From a virus: a stretch of 63,196 bases of DNA. Shown here one piece after another: positions 16,514 to 51,780 of the stretch. The notes under the pieces were generated by a model. It searched no databases. It was not told the DNA's origin and saw nothing but the letters and a program-made list of their open reading frames with translations. The stretch's first letter is position 1, and every line of letters begins with the position of its first letter. The stretch is taken from positions 1-63,196 of the IMG/VR virus record IMGVR_UViG_3300046171_000106; one strand, written 5' to 3'. Position numbers and translations under genes: made by a program.

Positions 16514-16731
16514 ATTCGCTCGTGTAAATAATATAATAATAATTTTAAAAAGAAGTCAAAAGTCATGATACCAGCTGCAACCTCAACTGAACCTGTAAGA
16601 AAATAACTAATTAATCCAGTAGTAACTGTTGCAATAATTCTCCATGAAAATGCTTTTGCAATTGACTTACTGTGAGTATCCAAGTTGTCTCCTAATCTCT
16701 GTTGCGGAGATTGATTCTGTCTCTTTATCAA
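16495..16731 (-). CDS. DUF2061 membrane protein
   Basis: 78 residues from ATG 16731. A TTG start (about 16683, LDTHSKSIAKAF) would reduce a 65-base overlap with the preceding gene to 17 bases and gives a more typical DUF2061 length. SIAKAFSWRIIATVTTGLISYFLTG and FFLKLLLYYLHERIW are diagnostic of PF09834, a two-helix membrane domain often found beside APS-kinase genes, as here. Function unknown. Confidence 0.85.
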   Translation of the reverse strand: MIKRQNQSPQQRLGDNLDTHSKSIAKAFSWRIIATVTTGLISYFLTGSVEVAAGIMTFDFFLKLLLYYLHERIWTNAQ

Positions 16732-17455
16732 AAGACTCCTCTTCTATCTTGTACCCCACATCTCTTCCATATGTTATGTTGACAATGTTCGGTACTTTCT
16801 GTATAATATAGTGTACATTTTCTTCGTATCCTTCTCCTAGTAAAAACATTTTAATGTTTTGTTTTACTGTCTTGAAATCAAATGGATTCTTTGCAGTGTT
16901 TTCCATTGCACGAACCATAATTACTACTTGTCCTGTTTTATCAAAACATCTTTTAAATAGTGCATGATGACCATCATGAAAAGGTTGAAATCTACCTAAC
17001 ATTTGTGTAGTAGGTTTATTTTCATCAAACCTTTTATTGTCTGCAAGTATTTCTCTTGCAATAACTTCTGAATGAAGTTCACCATTCTGGTCTTCTACTA
17101 GATAATCTATTTCATTTTTTAAAGGTCTTTGAAATGCTTTATTAGTATCTGCATATCTACCTTTATCAATTGTATCCATAAAGATTATATAATCTGGATT
17201 TAAAATTTGTCGACCTTGAGTAAATGGACATACGAAATCCATAATTGCATATGGTTTTTCGGATTCTCTACATAGGTCTTTCATCCTATGTACTTGTCTC
17301 ATTCTACCTTCCTCTGAGAAATCCCAATCATTGTGTTGGGCTCGGACTGCATCTGCATTGAAATGGTCTGCATCTAAATGTTCAAGTAGACATTTTGAGA
17401 TGTAAGTTTTTCCACTGCCAGGCAGTCCCATAATTAAAATTGTTTTTGTTTTCAT
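16667..17455 (-). CDS. Fusion of APS-kinase-like P-loop kinase and NMNAT-type nucleotidyltransferase
   Basis: 262 residues. Residues 1-120 form a CysC-like kinase: P-loop GLPGSGKT (10-17), the NADAVR motif (33-38) and NDWDFSEEGR (42-51). Residues 150-262 form a nucleotidyltransferase: GRFQPFHDGH (154-163) carrying HxGH, and the C-terminal ISATEIRR, equal to the ISSTxxR motif. NadR has NMN adenylyltransferase first and kinase second; here the order is reversed. It may make or salvage a nucleotide cofactor or an adenylylated small molecule. The neighbours are DUF2061 and two oxygenases. A weak late-like box (CATAAGTA) lies five bases before the ATG. Confidence 0.85.
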   Translation of the reverse strand: MKTKTILIMGLPGSGKTYISKCLLEHLDADHFNADAVRAQHNDWDFSEEGRMRQVHRMKDLCRESEKPYAIMDFVCPFTQGRQILNPDYIIFMDTIDKGRYADTNKAFQRPLKNEIDYLVEDQNGELHSEVIAREILADNKRFDENKPTTQMLGRFQPFHDGHHALFKRCFDKTGQVVIMVRAMENTAKNPFDFKTVKQNIKMFLLGEGYEENVHYIIQKVPNIVNITYGRDVGYKIEEESFDKETESISATEIRRQLGYSQ

Positions 17456-19018: not shown

Positions 19019-20710
19019 TTAAGGCCAAGGTTTATTCAAATCACCATCCCATGTAGATACTGGTCGAGTCGATGGTCTTGTACTTGGTCTAGTAGAAGGT
19101 CTAGTCGATGGTCTATTTGCTGGTCTAGTCAATGTCACTTCATAGTTGGCAGGTCTACTGATAGTCTGTTCAAAGTTAGCAGGTCTATTGTTTTGCAACT
19201 GAGTTGGTCTAGGAATAGTCTGTTCAAATGTTGAAGGTCTACTAATAGTCTGTTCAAAGGTTGCTGGTCTACTAGTTTGATAGTTAGTAGGTCTACTATT
19301 TTGTAACTGAGTTGGTCTAGGTATAGTCACCTCATAGTTAGCAGGTCTATTAATAGTTTGTTCATAGTTGGCAGGTCTGTTAATAGTTTGCTCATAGTTA
19401 GCAGGTCTACTAGTTTGATAGTTAGTAGGTCTAGGTATTGTTTGTTCATAGTTAGCAGGTCTGTTAATAGTTTGCTCATAGTTAGCAGGTCTATTAATGG
19501 TTACCTCATAGTTAGCAGGTCTATTACCTTGAGTTTGGTAATTTTGTGGTCTAGTAGAATGTCCTTGAGTTTGGTAATTCTGTGGTCTAGTTGCATGACC
19601 AGTAGTCTGATAATTTTGTGGTCTAGTTGCATGACCTTGAGTTTGGTAATTCTGTGGTCTAGTTGCATGACCTTGAGACTGGTAAGTAGTAGGTCTACTA
19701 TTCTGTTGTTGATAATTATAAGGTTGCTGAGTATTTATCTGATTTGGAGACCATGGGCCTACTGGTTGGAAAGCTGGTGAAGCTGTACCACCCCAAATCA
19801 TCTGAGCATTAGGAAACTGTTGGTTTGTTGCACCAGCACCAAACTTAGGGTTTGCCGCAGTATGAAAATTCACTTGGTATGTTTGTTGGTTATTAACTGG
19901 TCTAAAACCATGAGCCCCTGTTTGATAATTAGCTGGTCTATGATTCTGAATCTGATAGTTATACTGTTGTGGTCTATGATTCTGTATTTGATAATTATAC
20001 TGAGCAGGTCTATGATTTTGAATCTGATAGTTATACTGTTGTGGTCTATGATTCTGAATCTGATAGTTATACTGTTGTGGTCTATGATTCTGAATCTGAT
20101 AAGTTGTAGGCCTAGGTATTGTTTGTTCGTAAGAAGTAGGTCTTGGTATAGTTACCTCATAACTTGTAGGTCTTGGTATAGTTACCTCATAACTTGATGG
20201 TCTACTATTCTGTACCTGTGTTGGTCTAGGAATAGTTACCTCGTAAGAAGTGGGTCTAGGTATAGTCACTTCGTAAGAAGTAGGTCTAGGAATAGTCTGT
20301 TCAAAGTTAGCAGGTCTAGGAGTTTGGAAATTAGCAGGTCTACTATTCTGTACCTGTGTAGGTCTTGGAATAGTTACTTCATAAGAAGTAGGTCTTGAAA
20401 TAGTTTGTTCAAAGTTAGCAGGTCTTGGAGTTTGAAAAGTAGTAGGTCTAGGTATAGTCACCTCATAAGTTGTAGGTCTACTAATAGTTTGTTCATAGGG
20501 TTGTTGATACCCTTGTTGAAAAGGTTGTTGAAATGGTTGTTGAAATGTCTGTGTAAAAGGTTGTTGCACCTGTATAGTTCCAGTCTGGAATTCCCATCCA
20601 GTTGGAGTCTTTCTTTTTACATCAACTACTTTCTTCCAGCCAGCTGGAGTTTTAACTCTCCATCCATTGGTTTCATTCCACCCAGCTGGGGTTTTTACTT
20701 TTGAACTCAT
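19019..20710 (-). CDS. Arg-Pro/aromatic repeat protein, putative fibre or adhesin
   Basis: 563 residues. Residues 1-45 carry three KTP(A/T)GW motifs, the small Trp hairpin seen at the start of phage tail adhesins. Then come Gln/Pro/Phe repeats, and from about 75 to 260 and 330 to 545 dozens of RPxx(Y/F) units with a period near 10 (such as IPRPTSYEVT and INRPANYEQT) or 12 (QIQNHRPQQYNY). A non-repetitive core at about 262-330 separates the blocks. The C-terminus is (RPST)n followed by WDGDLNKPWP. Acidic residues are few and the composition is that of an extended, low-complexity shaft. It lies distal to the fibre operon, so a virion surface role is likely but unproven. Confidence 0.8.
   Translation of the reverse strand: MSSKVKTPAGWNETNGWRVKTPAGWKKVVDVKRKTPTGWEFQTGTIQVQQPFTQTFQQPFQQPFQQGYQQPYEQTISRPTTYEVTIPRPTTFQTPRPANFEQTISRPTSYEVTIPRPTQVQNSRPANFQTPRPANFEQTIPRPTSYEVTIPRPTSYEVTIPRPTQVQNSRPSSYEVTIPRPTSYEVTIPRPTSYEQTIPRPTTYQIQNHRPQQYNYQIQNHRPQQYNYQIQNHRPAQYNYQIQNHRPQQYNYQIQNHRPANYQTGAHGFRPVNNQQTYQVNFHTAANPKFGAGATNQQFPNAQMIWGGTASPAFQPVGPWSPNQINTQQPYNYQQQNSRPTTYQSQGHATRPQNYQTQGHATRPQNYQTTGHATRPQNYQTQGHSTRPQNYQTQGNRPANYEVTINRPANYEQTINRPANYEQTIPRPTNYQTSRPANYEQTINRPANYEQTINRPANYEVTIPRPTQLQNSRPTNYQTSRPATFEQTISRPSTFEQTIPRPTQLQNNRPANFEQTISRPANYEVTLTRPANRPSTRPSTRPSTRPSTRPVSTWDGDLNKPWP
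19050..20530. repeat. Degenerate tandem repeats inside the Arg-Pro repeat gene
   Basis: On the plus strand GCAGGTCTA, GTAGGTCTA and GGTCTATGATTCTG units recur every 24-36 bases. Runs at 19930-20100 (36-base period) and 19300-19520 (30-base period) are nearly identical. Such a stretch invites recombination and misassembly, so repeat number may vary between related genomes. Confidence 0.8.
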
Positions 20711-46745: not shown

Positions 46746-47164
46746 TATCTTACTCTCTGTAATATTACTTCTAATTCTTGTGGTTCTTTAACACCTACAA
46801 CACCATAATGAAGATTGACATGCATAGTGTTATTCCTACTGTTAGTTAGATATATTTCTTCTACTCTAACTCTAGGTTCTAACATTGTTAATGCATCAAT
46901 TATTTGATTTCTTATTTCTGTTTTTGTCATGTCGTCTGCAAGTTCAAATAGGAGTCCCCTAAGATTTGCACCAAAGTTTGGTTTGAAAGGTCTCTCAAAA
47001 TTGTTGGTCAACATGATATTTCTTACTGACCTTTTTACTGCTTCTTTATCTTGTTTCAAAACTAAATCACCAGACGAAGGGTGTGGTGTGATATTTAAAT
47101 CCATATCTGTATACCACTGTCGTGCAGTAATCTTGTTTTTGTTTTGTAGATAATTGTCACTCAT
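46745..47164 (-). CDS. gp25: Baseplate wedge protein gp25
   Basis: 139 residues (T4 132). DMDLNITPHPSSGDLVLKQD, AVKRSVRNIMLTNNFERPF, GANLRGLLFELAD and ALTMLEPRVRVEEIYL are the gp25/lysozyme-like W family core, including the conserved EPR. It nucleates sheath attachment with gp6. Late-like box CATAAATA lies five bases before the ATG. Confidence 0.95.
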   Translation of the reverse strand: MSDNYLQNKNKITARQWYTDMDLNITPHPSSGDLVLKQDKEAVKRSVRNIMLTNNFERPFKPNFGANLRGLLFELADDMTKTEIRNQIIDALTMLEPRVRVEEIYLTNSRNNTMHVNLHYGVVGVKEPQELEVILQRVR

Positions 47165-47177: not shown

Positions 47178-48243
47178 CACCTTCAACGACTAGTTCTACA
47201 ACATCTATTTGTTTTGGGAAACCAATTACTGTTAAGAATGTACATAGAGTAAATGGTATTGGTATTTCTACTGGTATAAAGAATTTAATAAGTTCAGTAA
47301 GTTTTGCAAGACAAGCTTCAAATAATATTTGAGGTAGGTCTTTTATAAATGTTTTAAACCTTTCAAATAATCTTTGTTCATCCCACCTAGGAAAGTTTAT
47401 TTCTTTTTTCTCTCTTTTATCTAAGTCAATTAAATCACCTAGGGTCTCTGGTAAGACATCTTCCAGTCCTAACATCTCTGCTGGTATTTCTGATACAAAA
47501 GGTATTTCTGTTTGTTTTAATAACTCAATTAATTCTAATCCTTCTTTCTCTGCTTGTTCTCTTAACTTTCTAAATAATGTATCTGCATCAAACTCATATC
47601 CACCTTTAGGAAAGGATGCAATTAATTCTAAGAAGAATCCTATAGGGTCTGGTAAAGTTTCTATAATAGTTTTTAATGGTTCTTTATCTAATAGTTTTCC
47701 TATTGCACTAAATCCACCAGTCATTACTATTTTTTTAATCTCCTCAATCATTTCTTTCCATGCTTTAGATAATTTAATCTGAGGACTATCAATACCAAAC
47801 TCACCATTCCAATTCTCTGCACTAAAAGTTTCCATAAGTGAGTCTATTGCATCTAAACCTAGACTCTCTTCTAACTCTTGAAGGAGTTCTGCCTTATAGC
47901 CAGGGTCTTCAAATAGTTTTTTACAGTCTACTGTTATTCCAAATGGTGGAACAACAAACTCTAATGGTACTGCAAGAAACTCTGCAATCTTTACCATCGG
48001 ATATAATTTAAATTCTTCGATGATAGCTTGTATTTTACCTTCCCATTCTAGTTCTGGAATGTCTAAATCTTTGGGCCAAGTATGAGATAAAGGAAATGCA
48101 CCTAATAATTCTTCGATGGGTTTAATATATTCCCATCCATAAGTATTACCTATCTCTATTATTATTTTTTCTAGGTCATCGGCACTTGGAATTAATACTT
48201 CTGGACAGTCGACTGCAACTGATTTTTTATTTTCTTCGGACAT
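47173..48243 (-). CDS. Unknown baseplate-cluster protein, helical
   Basis: 356 residues, strongly helical and acidic/lysine rich, with short proline-bounded hydrophobic stretches (LAVPLEFVVPPFGITVDC, LPDPIGFFLELIASFPKGG, IPVEIPIPFTLCTFLTVIGF). It sits between gp5 and gp25. Its ATG overlaps the gp5 stop by one base, so it is translated with the hub spike. No family recognised. Amphipathic helices and paired hydrophobic ends could suit a protein that meets the host envelope, but this is speculation. Confidence 0.75.
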   Translation of the reverse strand: MSEENKKSVAVDCPEVLIPSADDLEKIIIEIGNTYGWEYIKPIEELLGAFPLSHTWPKDLDIPELEWEGKIQAIIEEFKLYPMVKIAEFLAVPLEFVVPPFGITVDCKKLFEDPGYKAELLQELEESLGLDAIDSLMETFSAENWNGEFGIDSPQIKLSKAWKEMIEEIKKIVMTGGFSAIGKLLDKEPLKTIIETLPDPIGFFLELIASFPKGGYEFDADTLFRKLREQAEKEGLELIELLKQTEIPFVSEIPAEMLGLEDVLPETLGDLIDLDKREKKEINFPRWDEQRLFERFKTFIKDLPQILFEACLAKLTELIKFFIPVEIPIPFTLCTFLTVIGFPKQIDVVELVVEGA

Positions 48244-49067
48244 TAATCAAATGCAGTACCATTTAATGATACTTTACCTTTTATTCTAATTGCTTTATCT
48301 GGATTAGTTGTAGTTAAATCAATATTTCCACCATGTGCAGTGAATTTAATTGAACCACCATCTTCTGATTTACCTTTATATGCATTTATATTATAATTAC
48401 CATTAGATAATTCAATATCTGCACTACCAGCTATTAATACTTTTTTATCTTTTAATATTATTTCGTAATTATTATTTGCAACCTTCATAGTCATGTCACC
48501 ATCTCGGAGAAATTCTATTCTACTACCAGTTCGGTGATATAAATGTATTCTTTCTGCATTTGGAGTATCATCTAGTTCTAAAACATGACCAGATTCACTC
48601 TCAATCATTTTATTAAATGGATAACTAGGAGAAACACTTAAACGAGTCGGTTCTTTGACTGATGTACCTTCATGTTTTATAATAACATCATTCGGATAGG
48701 TTGCACTTGACCCAGTAATTGCATTTTCATTGACATCAGACTTAGATTCTGAGGAATATGAGACTCTAGGATACCTTTCACCAGATTCTTTCGGTTCTAT
48801 AGTCGTACCTTTTCCATCAACTGGGTTATTTAAGGTTAAAGTCGGTCTTCCCAGTGGTGCAGTGTCTAATGCACCTATTAAACTAAAGTTTCTACCATTG
48901 GCAGGTTTATCACTACTTGTTTCATAGTCAGTTTGAGTCCCTCGTCTGGGGTCGTTGAAACCTTCATCGGCACTACGGCTTATTTTTTTGGTTACATCAT
49001 TGTTCGGTATCTTATAAGAGTCGTTTGGTCGTCCAAAAAGACTACCCATAACGACAAAATCTTGCAT
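48243..49067 (-). CDS. gp5: Baseplate hub/spike gp5, C-terminal fragment
   Basis: 274 residues. The frame continues the OB-fold N-terminus as GEDMQDFVVMGSLFGRPNDS after a one-base loss at about 49071-49076. FNKMIESESGHVLELDDTPN then ERIHLYHRTGSRIEF is the VgrG/gp5 motif before the beta-helical spike (SADIELSNGNYNINAYKG, GNIDLTTTNP). There is no room for the lysozyme domain found in T4 gp5. The complete protein (48243-49327) would be about 361 aa. Confidence 0.88.
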   Translation of the reverse strand: MQDFVVMGSLFGRPNDSYKIPNNDVTKKISRSADEGFNDPRRGTQTDYETSSDKPANGRNFSLIGALDTAPLGRPTLTLNNPVDGKGTTIEPKESGERYPRVSYSSESKSDVNENAITGSSATYPNDVIIKHEGTSVKEPTRLSVSPSYPFNKMIESESGHVLELDDTPNAERIHLYHRTGSRIEFLRDGDMTMKVANNNYEIILKDKKVLIAGSADIELSNGNYNINAYKGKSEDGGSIKFTAHGGNIDLTTTNPDKAIRIKGKVSLNGTAFD

Positions 49068-49327
49068 ATCTTCTCATCTCGGAAGAATCCCATGACTGTA
49101 GAACCTTCTACCAGTCCATGAGGAGACAAACCAAGTCCAGAAAGACTCGGAGAAGTGGTCGGCATAAGGATATCAGACCATGGAAGGTCTGGAGTCGGTA
49201 TTAAAAGTTTGTCATCGGTGTGTAAACCATAGACTCGGACACGAACTCGACCCAAATATAGTGGGTCATGTCGGTCTTCGACCACTCCAGTGTAAAAATT
49301 ACTACTTAATCCTGTAAAACCTATCAT
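48992..49327 (-). CDS. gp5: Baseplate hub/spike gp5, N-terminal OB-fold fragment
   Basis: 111 residues in frame, the first 88 or so genuine: MIGFTGLSSNFYTGVVEDRH, PLYLGRVRVRVYGLHTDD, LPWSDILMPTTSPSLSGLG, PHGLVEGSTVMGFFRDE. This is the gp5 OB-fold that connects the gp27 hub to the spike. After FFRDE the frame becomes nonsense (KICKILSLWVV) because one G is missing. Part of the 48243-49327 gene. Confidence 0.88.
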   Translation of the reverse strand: MIGFTGLSSNFYTGVVEDRHDPLYLGRVRVRVYGLHTDDKLLIPTPDLPWSDILMPTTSPSLSGLGLSPHGLVEGSTVMGFFRDEKICKILSLWVVFLDDQTTLIRYRTMM

Positions 49328-49427
49328 TTTCCTTCTCTTTTAACCCTTTTTTATATCCATCCTTCCATATAAAGTACACCATAGGTACTAATACTAACAT
49401 ATGAAAGAATATTACTGTATTACTCAT
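49302..49427 (-). CDS. 41-aa single-pass membrane protein
   Basis: ATG 49427, TAG 49302-49304, overlapping the gp5 start by 26 bases. MSNTVIFFHMLVLVPMVYFI is a hydrophobic helix, followed by WKDGYKKGLKEKENDRFYR, a basic cytoplasmic tail. TTGGGAT precedes the ATG. One of three tiny membrane proteins around panD. Function unknown. Confidence 0.55.
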   Translation of the reverse strand: MSNTVIFFHMLVLVPMVYFIWKDGYKKGLKEKENDRFYRIK

Positions 49428-49460
49428 GTCAATCCCAATAGTTCCCTATAAAGTCGGTCT

Positions 49461-49802
49461 TTAGGGTCGATTATTTTTATTTTCGGTGTATGATTTAGAT
49501 GGAAGAGTCTCATTATTCTCATCATACTGTACATAAGAACAAATAATCAGTTCATCACCTACATCGGTTAAATGGGCACCAGCACCATTGACTGATACCT
49601 CATTTGAACCTCTTGGTAATGGTAGGACATATGTCGTATGTCGGTTACCATTTGTTTTATTATATACATCTACCTGTTCATGGACTAGGAGTCCCACCTC
49701 ATCCATCCAGTTTTCGTCAATTAATATACTACCTTCGTAGTCTAAGTCTACATCGGTGCAGATACAACCATGTATCTTTGCACCTAATAAAGTTCTAATC
49801 AT
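49461..49802 (-). CDS. panD: Aspartate 1-decarboxylase PanD
   Basis: 113 residues (E. coli PanD 126). Every key position is present with E. coli numbering: K9, H11, Y22, the self-cleavage pair G24-S25 that yields the pyruvoyl group, R54, T57, Y58 and N72 (SVNGAGAH). The N-terminus MIRTLLGAKIHG is typical. The enzyme turns aspartate into beta-alanine, the precursor of pantothenate and coenzyme A. It is set among baseplate genes between two membrane microproteins, in the late operon whose promoter is at 50140. A phage copy is unusual. It would feed host CoA synthesis during infection, if the host has PanC. Confidence 0.93.
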   Translation of the reverse strand: MIRTLLGAKIHGCICTDVDLDYEGSILIDENWMDEVGLLVHEQVDVYNKTNGNRHTTYVLPLPRGSNEVSVNGAGAHLTDVGDELIICSYVQYDENNETLPSKSYTENKNNRP

Positions 49803-49805
49803 AAT

Positions 49806-49967
49806 TTATATCCAACACACTGGGTAAACACACCAATAGGGATTAAATATCCCCATCATCCATAAGACTAGGAGTCCCATGAGTATTTGCACCCATAATT
49901 TATCTTTAGACCACTCTCTAAACCTTAGAGCATGTGGTGCTAGTTTATTATATATCCAATTAGTCAT
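49806..49967 (-). CDS. 53-aa membrane protein upstream of panD
   Basis: ATG 49967, TAA 49806-49808, three bases before panD. N-terminal amphipathic part NKLAPHALRFREWSKDKLW, then the hydrophobic helix VQILMGLLVLWMMGIF and a CVYPVCW tail with two cysteines. The close spacing to panD suggests translational coupling. No family recognised. Confidence 0.55.
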   Translation of the reverse strand: MTNWIYNKLAPHALRFREWSKDKLWVQILMGLLVLWMMGIFNPYWCVYPVCWI

Positions 49968-49973
49968 AATATT

Positions 49974-50114
49974 TTAAAACATCCATACTATAATAGATGT
50001 AAAGATTACACCTTTCATAAAACAAAACCATGATAAGGTATATTCATCCATACCAGTAATGTCCATCAAATCGATTAACATTCTTCTATGTGAGTCTATT
50101 ATATTCTTAATCAT
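49974..50114 (-). CDS. 46-aa membrane protein, first gene of the panD unit
   Basis: ATG 50114 with AAGAGGAAAT upstream and a perfect late promoter 18 bases before it. MIKNIIDSHRRMLIDLMDIT is amphipathic; the C-terminus CFMKGVIFTSIIVWMF is hydrophobic. It is followed after six bases by the 53-aa gene and then panD. Promoter, ribosome site and spacing make it a credible gene despite its size. Confidence 0.6.
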   Translation of the reverse strand: MIKNIIDSHRRMLIDLMDITGMDEYTLSWFCFMKGVIFTSIIVWMF

Positions 50115-50270
50115 ATTATTTCCTCTTATTGTTATTTATAGGAGTCCCAGAAGAATATCTAGGAGTCCCATCATAATAAAATAGCTTTTCCTAGGAAAAA
50201 CTGCCCAAGACATTATAGGGGGTAGCAATGCCCGCCCAAAATAAGTCTAGGAGTCCCAAAACACTGTCCT
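50115..50270. other. Leader region upstream of the panD unit
   Basis: No assured gene. It holds the late promoter (50140-50133), three of the CTAGGAGTCCCA repeats and a G-rich/C-rich stretch at 50219-50236 able to form a hairpin. A 25-codon ORF (50213-50136) would encode repeat-derived MGLLDILLGLL; I do not count it as a gene. Confidence 0.5.
50133..50140 (-). promoter_or_regulatory. T4-type late promoter of the panD unit
   Basis: Perfect TATAAATA on the minus strand, 18 bases before ATG 50114, followed by AAGAGGAAAT. Confidence 0.7.
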
Positions 50271-51221
50271 TTAGTATTGTGAGTCTGCTTCCATACCCTC
50301 GAAGGTGTCTGGATTAACTTGGTGTCCATCTGTGGTGCATGAGAGTTGTAATTCTAAGCCATCTCTTGTCCCTGTCCATGTAATACTCTCTACGAGTAAC
50401 TTACCATTATGTTGTAGTTCGTCTCTCTCTCCACCTACTGTAGTGGGTTGTGGTATATCTACATGGATGACCATACCAGCACTTATATTGGTTCTACCAG
50501 ATATCTGGAGATTAACTCTATTCAGTTCGAATAACCTCTCTACTCTACCTCTATTAAACTTGACATGGCTTCCACCACTTGTTATACTATTCCCATCAGC
50601 TTCTGCTTTATTACTAAAGGTATGTGGTACATTATAATCAAAAGAGATAGCCGCTCCAAACCTTTCTGTAATAGGGTCTCCATTCAATGCAGTAGGAGCT
50701 ACTCCCATCACCTCTCCCTCAGCGGCTCCATCGTCTGGTACTCTAATGTTCTCTGCACCTAGTCTAAAGGGTGGTGCAACTGCAAGACCTTTCTTATAGT
50801 TCTTATCCTCTAGTTCAAACTGTTGAGTAAACTGACTAGGGATAACTGTGATTTGTTTGTTGATTGTGTCGTAAGAATGCACTGTGCCTGCATATAAACC
50901 CCCAGAATGACCCAGAAGGGTATCATAGAGGTTCTCTTTATTGTAGGATAGGATATCATTACCTACACCCTTAGAGTAGTCATAGTTCTGAGAGAGCTCT
51001 ACTGAACTATCTCTGGGACTAAACTCTACTGCACCATCCAGATACACGATAGTTTGCATGGTATCTATATTACAGAACCTAAACCCACTTAGAGCAGTCT
51101 GATAGAAGTAGTAAGAATCCCCATAAGGATGACTGTCATCAGCACTGGTGTGGTCTCTCAACCACTCTAAGGTCTTATAGATACTCCAATTAGGACAGAG
51201 AAACCCAGAGACATCTCCCAC
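50271..51221 (-). CDS. gp27: Baseplate hub protein gp27-like, C-terminal fragment
   Basis: 316 residues from an internal ATG. The frame is open further upstream (GNFFSVFDSNVGDVSGF) to the G8 run at 51261-51268. DTMQTIVYLDGAVEFSPRDS, FGAAISFDYNVPHTFSNKA, RGRVERLFELNRVNLQISGR and NGKLLVESITWTGTRDGLEL describe the gp27 hub (gpD-like) beta domains. Codons here are more G+C-rich than in neighbouring genes. The complete gene is 50271-51780, about 502 aa. Confidence 0.78.
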   Translation of the reverse strand: MGDVSGFLCPNWSIYKTLEWLRDHTSADDSHPYGDSYYFYQTALSGFRFCNIDTMQTIVYLDGAVEFSPRDSSVELSQNYDYSKGVGNDILSYNKENLYDTLLGHSGGLYAGTVHSYDTINKQITVIPSQFTQQFELEDKNYKKGLAVAPPFRLGAENIRVPDDGAAEGEVMGVAPTALNGDPITERFGAAISFDYNVPHTFSNKAEADGNSITSGGSHVKFNRGRVERLFELNRVNLQISGRTNISAGMVIHVDIPQPTTVGGERDELQHNGKLLVESITWTGTRDGLELQLSCTTDGHQVNPDTFEGMEADSQY

Positions 51222-51246
51222 ATTACTATCGAATACTGAGAAGAAG

Positions 51247-51780
51247 TTACCGAGTTCCTGCCCCCCCCTTCACACGCGGTTTCAAGAACTTTCCATCACT
51301 CTCAGTCTCAACGAAATTTAATTCTTCCTTACATATTTTATTTAATATATCCCCAGATTTACCTCTAAATACTCTGGATAGTCTCTTAGTTCTTGCCTCA
51401 TATAATAAAGGAGAACAGAAATCTAACTGATAAAGAGTCCTTGAGAGGTCTTCTGAGGTATCTCTAAGGTAAGTAGAGACATTAAATACACGAAATACTT
51501 GATTTATTTGTTCGTCTTCTGGTACTTCTTCCTCATTACCCTGTACACCACTGAAATGTATTCGAATATATTCTTGACCAGTAATATTTAATCGATTAAA
51601 TACATTAATATTGTCTGCAATCGTAATACTACCTGTAAGGAACATCTGATAGATACTCTCAGTAATACTAAAAGAGTCTACAAGGTTACTTACATCTATC
51701 TGATTACCCTCTTGATTACTGATAACTACACTGATTAACCTATAAGAATTAGGTTGATTATTACCTATTGATTGTGCCAT
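51247..51780 (-). CDS. gp27: Baseplate hub protein gp27-like, N-terminal fragment
   Basis: 177 residues. SYRLISVVISNQEGNQIDVS, LVDSFSITESIYQMFLTGSI, INVFNRLNITGQEYIRIHF and LLYEARTKRLSRVFRGKSGD resemble the first hub domain of gp27-type proteins. The frame ends just after a G8 homopolymer that carries one G too many; removal gives VKGGQELGNFFSVFDSN and continues into 50271-51221. gp27 trimer carries gp5 and caps the tail tube. Confidence 0.8.
   Translation of the reverse strand: MAQSIGNNQPNSYRLISVVISNQEGNQIDVSNLVDSFSITESIYQMFLTGSITIADNINVFNRLNITGQEYIRIHFSGVQGNEEEVPEDEQINQVFRVFNVSTYLRDTSEDLSRTLYQLDFCSPLLYEARTKRLSRVFRGKSGDILNKICKEELNFVETESDGKFLKPRVKGGAGTR

Follow-up and report, generated by a model that had tools for sequence, protein, structure and literature searches.

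Why would a phage carry the gene for an aspartate decarboxylase, PanD, among the genes for its baseplate? The question is raised by a 63-kb IMG/VR record (IMGVR_UViG_3300046171_000106; its whole 63,196 nucleotides are called the window here) whose head, neck, tail and baseplate proteins are T4-like. The answer depends on where the gene sits in related phages, on whether its product is still an enzyme, and on what the likely host is able to make for itself.

The panD gene and its slot

ORF analysis of the record places panD at 49461-49802 on the minus strand, where the initial annotation had reported it; the plus strand of this interval is rich in stops and has no open frame. The 3' end of the gene has to be corrected. 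Alignment with three relatives (L002, L003 and L005) reveals one extra base near 49500, because of which the frame is lost over the last ~12 residues. Read in the correct frame, the gene would end with a stop at 49424-49426, within an ATGA that also starts the next small ORF. The PanD proteins of relatives are mostly 125-137 residues long, 125 being usual, and end in ...KIKIIDPKDRLYRELLGL, with the common tail HxPKIKIIDPKDRLYRELLGL.

This frameshift is most likely a sequencing indel, which explains it better than decay of the gene would, since the neighbouring genes are equally broken and further frame switches occur along the record. The hub and gp5 genes are frame-broken here, yet nearly every relative that covers them has each as a single ORF. 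Compared with intact relatives, as judged against the 146-kb relative G001, the frame switches abruptly at ~1650, ~18690, ~28665, ~32395, ~49050, ~49500, ~51267 and ~61865. The record probably carries many single-base indels, and the ORF ends in it are therefore not to be trusted. The features of the locus are collected in Table 1.

Table 1. The panD cassette, the genes that border it and the repeated element within it (window coordinates).
Feature	Position	Strand	Remarks
gp27-like baseplate hub gene, upstream border of the slot	50271..51780	(-)	phrog_350; broken at ~51267; 498-522 aa in relatives
GGGACTCCTA copy 1	50248..50257	(-)	~14 nt past the hub stop
GGGACTCCTA copies 2 and 3	50139..50169	(-)	50160-50169 and 50139-50148; 11 nt apart, before sm46
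TATAAATA	50133-50140	(-)	overlapped by GGGACTCCTA copy 3
sm46, 46-aa ORF, first gene of the cassette	49974..50114	(-)	hydrophobic C-terminal stretch; present wherever the slot is covered
sm53, 53-aa hydrophobic ORF between sm46 and panD	49806..49967	(-)	in part of the clade
GGGACTCCTA copy 4	49869..49878	(-)	within sm53
panD, open frame in this record	49461..49802	(-)	113 aa; homology over residues 1-101, then ~12 in the wrong frame
panD, inferred full extent	49424..49802	(-)	~125 aa in relatives; alignment with L002, L003, L005
Gly24-Ser25 codons, expected self-cleavage site for the pyruvoyl group	49728..49733	(-)	ORF position; invariant in 39 sequences
GGGACTCCTA copy 5	49686..49695	(-)	within panD codons 36-39; GGA CTC synonymous sites invariant in 35 distinct relatives
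sm31, 41-aa ORF directly 3' of panD	49302..49427	(-)	hydrophobic N-terminal stretch; in part of the clade
gp5 hub / OB-domain gene, downstream border of the slot	48243..49327	(-)	phrog_430, Gp5_OB; frame-broken; ~350-400 aa in relatives

The position of panD within the baseplate cluster, as first described, is borne out: the hub gene lies upstream and gp5, gp25 and gp6 lie downstream. The same arrangement is found in other public records. A first scan gave 41 panD loci (L002-L042), and the later addition of L047 and L131 brought the total to 43. The order in the 41 loci is hub - sm46 - (sm53) - panD - (sm31) - gp5 - 356-aa gene - gp25 - gp6, within the reach of each contig, and panD is arranged in the same way in the two added records. 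These shared junctions rule out a chimaeric contig at panD, the artefact that the initial annotation had allowed for.

The identity of each record's gp6 to that of the window provides an independent yardstick, for which only records that span the slot were counted. By this measure panD is present in 23 of 23 records whose gp6 is at least 82% identical, where hub and gp5 are spaced 634-1128 bp apart, and in none of the 28 whose gp6 is at most 72% identical. An empty site, in which the hub stop and the gp5 start overlap by 1-31 nt, is found in 27 of these 28 panD-free records. The nearest sister, L191 (gp6 72%), has a different ORF of ~67 aa in the slot.

Isolated phages give a similar picture. 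The pelagimyophages HTVC008M and Mosig and the methylophage Melnitz share the T4-like backbone, with the order gp53 - hub - (slot) - gp5 and gp25 - gp6. Peptide deformylase is common to them and the panD clade, and curli-like genes are common to the panD clade and Melnitz. Unlike the window clade, all three phages are without panD. The slot of Melnitz holds ~11 kb with tRNA genes; that of Mosig holds a 111-aa ORF, which was considered as a relative of PanD and rejected as unrelated. Among relatives, then, the slot may be empty, filled or occupied by a foreign ORF, so it is a place that accepts insertions. Because of this, the baseplate neighbourhood says little about what panD does.

A wider scan found further phage panD genes. 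One set belongs to a second marine T4-like clade (L127-L130 and L278-L302 in IMG/VR) which, like the window clade, carries panD at one fixed locus. The order there is DUF6433 - panD - 78-aa ORF - PhoH, near ribonucleotide reductase and outside the baseplate genes. Most members have a panD lineage of their own, different from that of the window. In four of them (L127-L130) exactly this slot, between DUF6433 and the 78-aa ORF, holds a panD that belongs to the window's lineage and is 76-77% identical to the window's. Judging by these sequences, one panD lineage has taken over the site of another, whichever of the two came first. Such a replacement argues that what is kept is the activity, not a part of the virion.

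This bears on a suggestion of the initial annotation, that a small, stable barrel was taken into late functions. PanD would then serve in the baseplate hub, either in the virion or in assembly, and throughout the clade panD does have a hub gene on either side and probably shares their late transcript. The idea is opposed by the 27 of 28 sister records in which hub and gp5 overlap with nothing between them, by the unrelated ORFs in the slots of L191, Mosig and Melnitz, and by the second clade, where panD lies beside PhoH, away from baseplate genes, and one lineage has been swapped for another. The residues that serve processing and catalysis alone are also invariant. Nor does the gene accompany the hub genes throughout the T4-like relatives, as that of a virion protein would: it is absent from 28 of 28 records with gp6 at or below 72%. 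Structural recruitment is thus very improbable, and should be dropped unless virion proteomics contradicts this.

Annotated panD genes also occur in the Gordonia/Rhodococcus phage Jace and in Achromobacter phage 2-1. These are phage-borne like that of the window but belong to unrelated phages, are 30-39% identical, and lie beside exonuclease/ParB or DNA polymerase genes. A third, unrelated set of phage panD genes resembles that of Jace; it comprises high-GC contigs (L303-L310) and Jace itself (L241), and adjoins ParB-like genes. One of these contigs, L303, also has a protein resembling CoA-transferase family III. No paper on panD in pelagiphages or marine phages was found in the open-access literature.

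Two further genes of the window may be mentioned. At 16667-17455, adjoining neck and tail-fibre genes, a protein with kinase and cytidylyltransferase-like parts (PF01467 above cut-off; motif GRFQPFHDGH) is 90% identical in G001 and is perhaps a NadR-like enzyme of NAD salvage. At 19019-20710, beside tail-fibre genes, a 563-aa protein is built of short RPTTYEVTIPRP / QNHRPQQYNYQI repeats.

Identity of the protein

By Pfam, PDB sequence, fold comparison and invariant residues, the window gene reads as a genuine PanD. It matches Pfam Asp_decarbox (PF02261) with 117.1 bits (E 4.9e-34), the curated cut-off being 25 bits, and E. coli PanD (1ppy) with E 1.7e-25 in a comparison with PDB sequences. Against the NCBIfam equivalog TIGR00223 the window copy, with its frameshifted tail, reaches 103.5 bits versus a cut-off of 106. 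Intact relatives pass it (L002 106.9, L027 110.9, L127 109.7, L281 124.2), and two others, L034 (102.5) and L298 (104.0), fall slightly under.

The catalytic and self-processing residues that had been described as intact are indeed all present in the window. They comprise the Gly24-Ser25 processing site with His11, Tyr22, Thr57, Tyr58 and Asn72, and the substrate-binding Lys9 and Arg54; all nine are invariant in 39 phage and cellular PanDs. Modelled in AF2 with an alignment that included cellular PanDs, the intact relative L002 reaches a pLDDT of 89.8; AF2 given no alignment reached 37. The best 40 matches of the L002 model in the PDB are all aspartate decarboxylases, and Foldseek aligns it with 1ppy at E 1e-14 as a double-psi beta-barrel.

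Bacterial PanD (PF02261, TIGR00223; E. coli 1ppy/1aw8) and the phage protein are thus alike in length, barrel, cleavage site and active-site residues. They differ in sequence, the phage protein being ~40% identical to that of E. coli, in the phage protein's own tail (the one given above), and in its being phage-borne. The window-lineage phage PanDs form one phage-only clade (support 100/98, 100/100) on a long stem, apart from all cellular PanDs sampled. By identity, alphaproteobacterial PanDs come closest among the cellular ones, at up to 57%. Taken together, the sequence comparisons suggest that phage PanD is probably an active aspartate 1-decarboxylase.

The median dN/dS of panD is 0.09 over 480 pairs, a value that points to strong purifying selection. 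With its presence in 23 of 23 records of the clade, it marks panD as a gene kept by selection, and the T4-like baseplate flanks and the 146-kb relative mark it as a metabolic enzyme gene within a bona fide viral genome. A passenger gene, recently acquired and drifting or brought in by a chimaeric contig, might look like the window's copy, frameshifted at its 3' end. That frameshift, however, is one of several indels in the record, the frames of relatives are intact, and the 43 other records are alike. With the same slot in all of these, the low dN/dS and the presence in 23 of 23 against 0 of 28, passenger DNA is refuted and retains hardly any probability.

A PanD precursor that stays uncut or inactive might instead act as a decoy or regulator, binding CoA-linked regulators such as PanZ/PanM. 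PanD of enterobacteria is regulated by PanZ, and the PanD-PanZ complex 5ls7 is among the fold matches. Against such a role, the self-processing residues are intact and three Pelagibacter genomes have a score of 0 for PanZ (PMC7142369), and we give it the least credence of all the alternatives, close to none.

A repeated nucleotide element

The cassette also contains a short repeat. The sequence GGGACTCCTA occurs in 6 copies in the window, where 0.06 are expected; 5 lie in the stretch from the hub stop to panD codon 39, all of them in the sense of transcription. The element GGGACTCCT(A) is found in the window at 49686-50257 and 46949-46958, and also in loci L002-L042 and L311-L400. Throughout the clade the layout is one copy after the hub, two copies spaced 9-11 nt apart before sm46, and one copy in panD.

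TGGGACTCC is nearly invariant in 105 distinct contexts. Within panD, codons 34-38 (GAT GAG GTG GGA CTC) have zero codon variation in 35 distinct sequences, and CTC makes up only 4% of the leucine codons in G001. Many IMG/VR contigs of unrelated phages also have pairs of the motif.

A hairpin can form from copies 2 and 3, and the fold looks strong in this clade. Covariation is weak: the arms do not vary, a single flanking pair covaries in the clade, and no flank covariation is seen in 93 pairs from other phages. No known RNA family in Rfam matched in the window.

The host and its pathway

Among isolates, those closest to the window are T4-like phages that infect Pelagibacter or OM43 methylotrophs, and SAR11 or similar streamlined marine bacteria are taken here as the likely hosts. 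The window's gp6 is only 42% identical to that of Melnitz (OM43 host), 40% to that of Mosig and 39% to that of HTVC008M (Pelagibacter hosts), which weakens this assignment; its gp23 DNA is ~75% identical to pelagiphages over a short stretch. G001 encodes a peptide deformylase and an aspartyl/asparaginyl beta-hydroxylase domain, both among the pelagimyophage core proteins named in PMC7029224.

G001 also has an alternative oxidase (L143:7212-7820; PF01786, E 3e-70) that adjoins a tRNA-Ala gene. The oxidase is found in 58 of 147 SAR11-order genomes, 53-67% identical to the phage copy, which is 66% identical to that of another alphaproteobacterium. Among named phages it has a relative only in Phage C48C1. 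Neither the oxidase nor the tRNA genes, none in the window and two in G001, are decisive for the host. One 30-kb phage contig, 96% identical (L047, NYUU01000001.1; see also L152-L153), is binned in the genome of the GTDB species Synechococcus sp. CPC35. This is probably a binning error and possibly a hint of the host; a Synechococcus host is not trusted on a single binned contig.

What SAR11 can make for itself was surveyed in 147 genomes, many of them incomplete, of the order to which genome G220 belongs. G220 was recognised as SAR11 by exact matches to three 16S sequences that we take to be the probes SAR11-441R, -542R and -732R. PanC is above cut-off in 128 of the 147 genomes and PanB in 112, whereas PanD is above cut-off in none, a difference from PanC that is not explained by incompleteness. 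The PLP-dependent decarboxylase family PF00282 is likewise above cut-off in 0 of 147, so that the order lacks both aspartate decarboxylase families searched (PF02261 and PF00282) and yet keeps PanB and PanC. In the control genome, Synechococcus elongatus, PanB and PanC were matched and PanD was not.

The survey agrees with Table A2 of PMC7142369, in which three Pelagibacter genomes have KPHMT 1, PS 1 and ADC 0. The initial annotation had noted that Pelagibacter genomes are described as lacking complete pantothenate synthesis and had proposed a check of the host for panB and panC. The first point holds for PanD; panB and panC are kept in most genomes of the order. The Pelagibacter host assumed there is a likely one. 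Should SAR11 be the host, what the phage brings is exactly the missing step.

We therefore consider it reasonably probable, from these comparisons, that phage panD is a gap-filling auxiliary metabolic gene, a working decarboxylase that feeds beta-alanine to the PanC of the host. The precursor would fold as a double-psi beta-barrel tetramer and cut itself between Gly24 and Ser25, the serine becoming the pyruvoyl cofactor, and the processed enzyme would convert aspartate to beta-alanine and CO2. Knowledge of the family suggests these steps of self-cleavage, pyruvoyl chemistry and beta-alanine formation. The host survey suggests the next ones, in which the host's own pantothenate synthetase (PanC) would use the beta-alanine for pantothenate and then coenzyme A in the infected cell. 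The phage would in this way supply a single step missing from the host, not a duplicate of a host gene. The gene may have entered the insertion-prone slot between hub and gp5 once, at the base of the clade, and been kept since. The identity of the host, the activity of the enzyme and the benefit to the phage are what we infer.

Several points count against gap filling. The window's gp6 is distant from that of isolates on known hosts, one near-identical contig was binned with Synechococcus, and no other CoA-pathway gene was recognised in the scanned ORFs of G001. The gene is among late structural genes, which is late for a metabolic benefit, and SAR11 may cover its need by uptake of beta-alanine or pantothenate. 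The metabolic reading first proposed is supported and can be sharpened to the sole missing PanD step in SAR11; the loss of a whole pathway does not stand.

An active PanD could also serve a need other than CoA, through beta-alanine (for instance as a solute or a substrate for transamination), the removal of aspartate or the consumption of protons. The catalytic residues, all kept, and the late-operon position are compatible with this, as is the fact that no other CoA-pathway gene was recognised nearby or among those ORFs of G001 that were scanned. PanD, however, is usually a slow, low-flux enzyme. Of PanB, PanC and PanD, moreover, only PanD is missing in SAR11, so that the simplest sink is the CoA route. 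A use outside CoA synthesis is thus unlikely, although it deserves more weight than the other alternatives.

A fuller version of the gap-filling reading is possible, and we put it forward tentatively. The core panD of a lytic marine clade may be the single enzyme that its host lineage lost, so that a beta-alanine-dependent SAR11 cell, once infected, would no longer depend on outside supply for pantothenate and CoA. The conserved repeat may be tied to expression of the cassette, one copy of which lies in the codons of panD.

Most metabolic genes of phages duplicate genes of the host. Here the step is apparently missing from the route to coenzyme A in the most abundant bacteria of the ocean, which retain the flanking steps, and this match to a hole in the likely host's pathway raises the interest of panD above that usual for an auxiliary metabolic gene. 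The pattern in two clades, with panD swapped at one locus, is natural evidence for selection on activity. If the proposed role is true, the supply of CoA or pantothenate would limit phage production in streamlined ocean bacteria, and the dependence of SAR11 on vitamin B5 would become testable through its phages.
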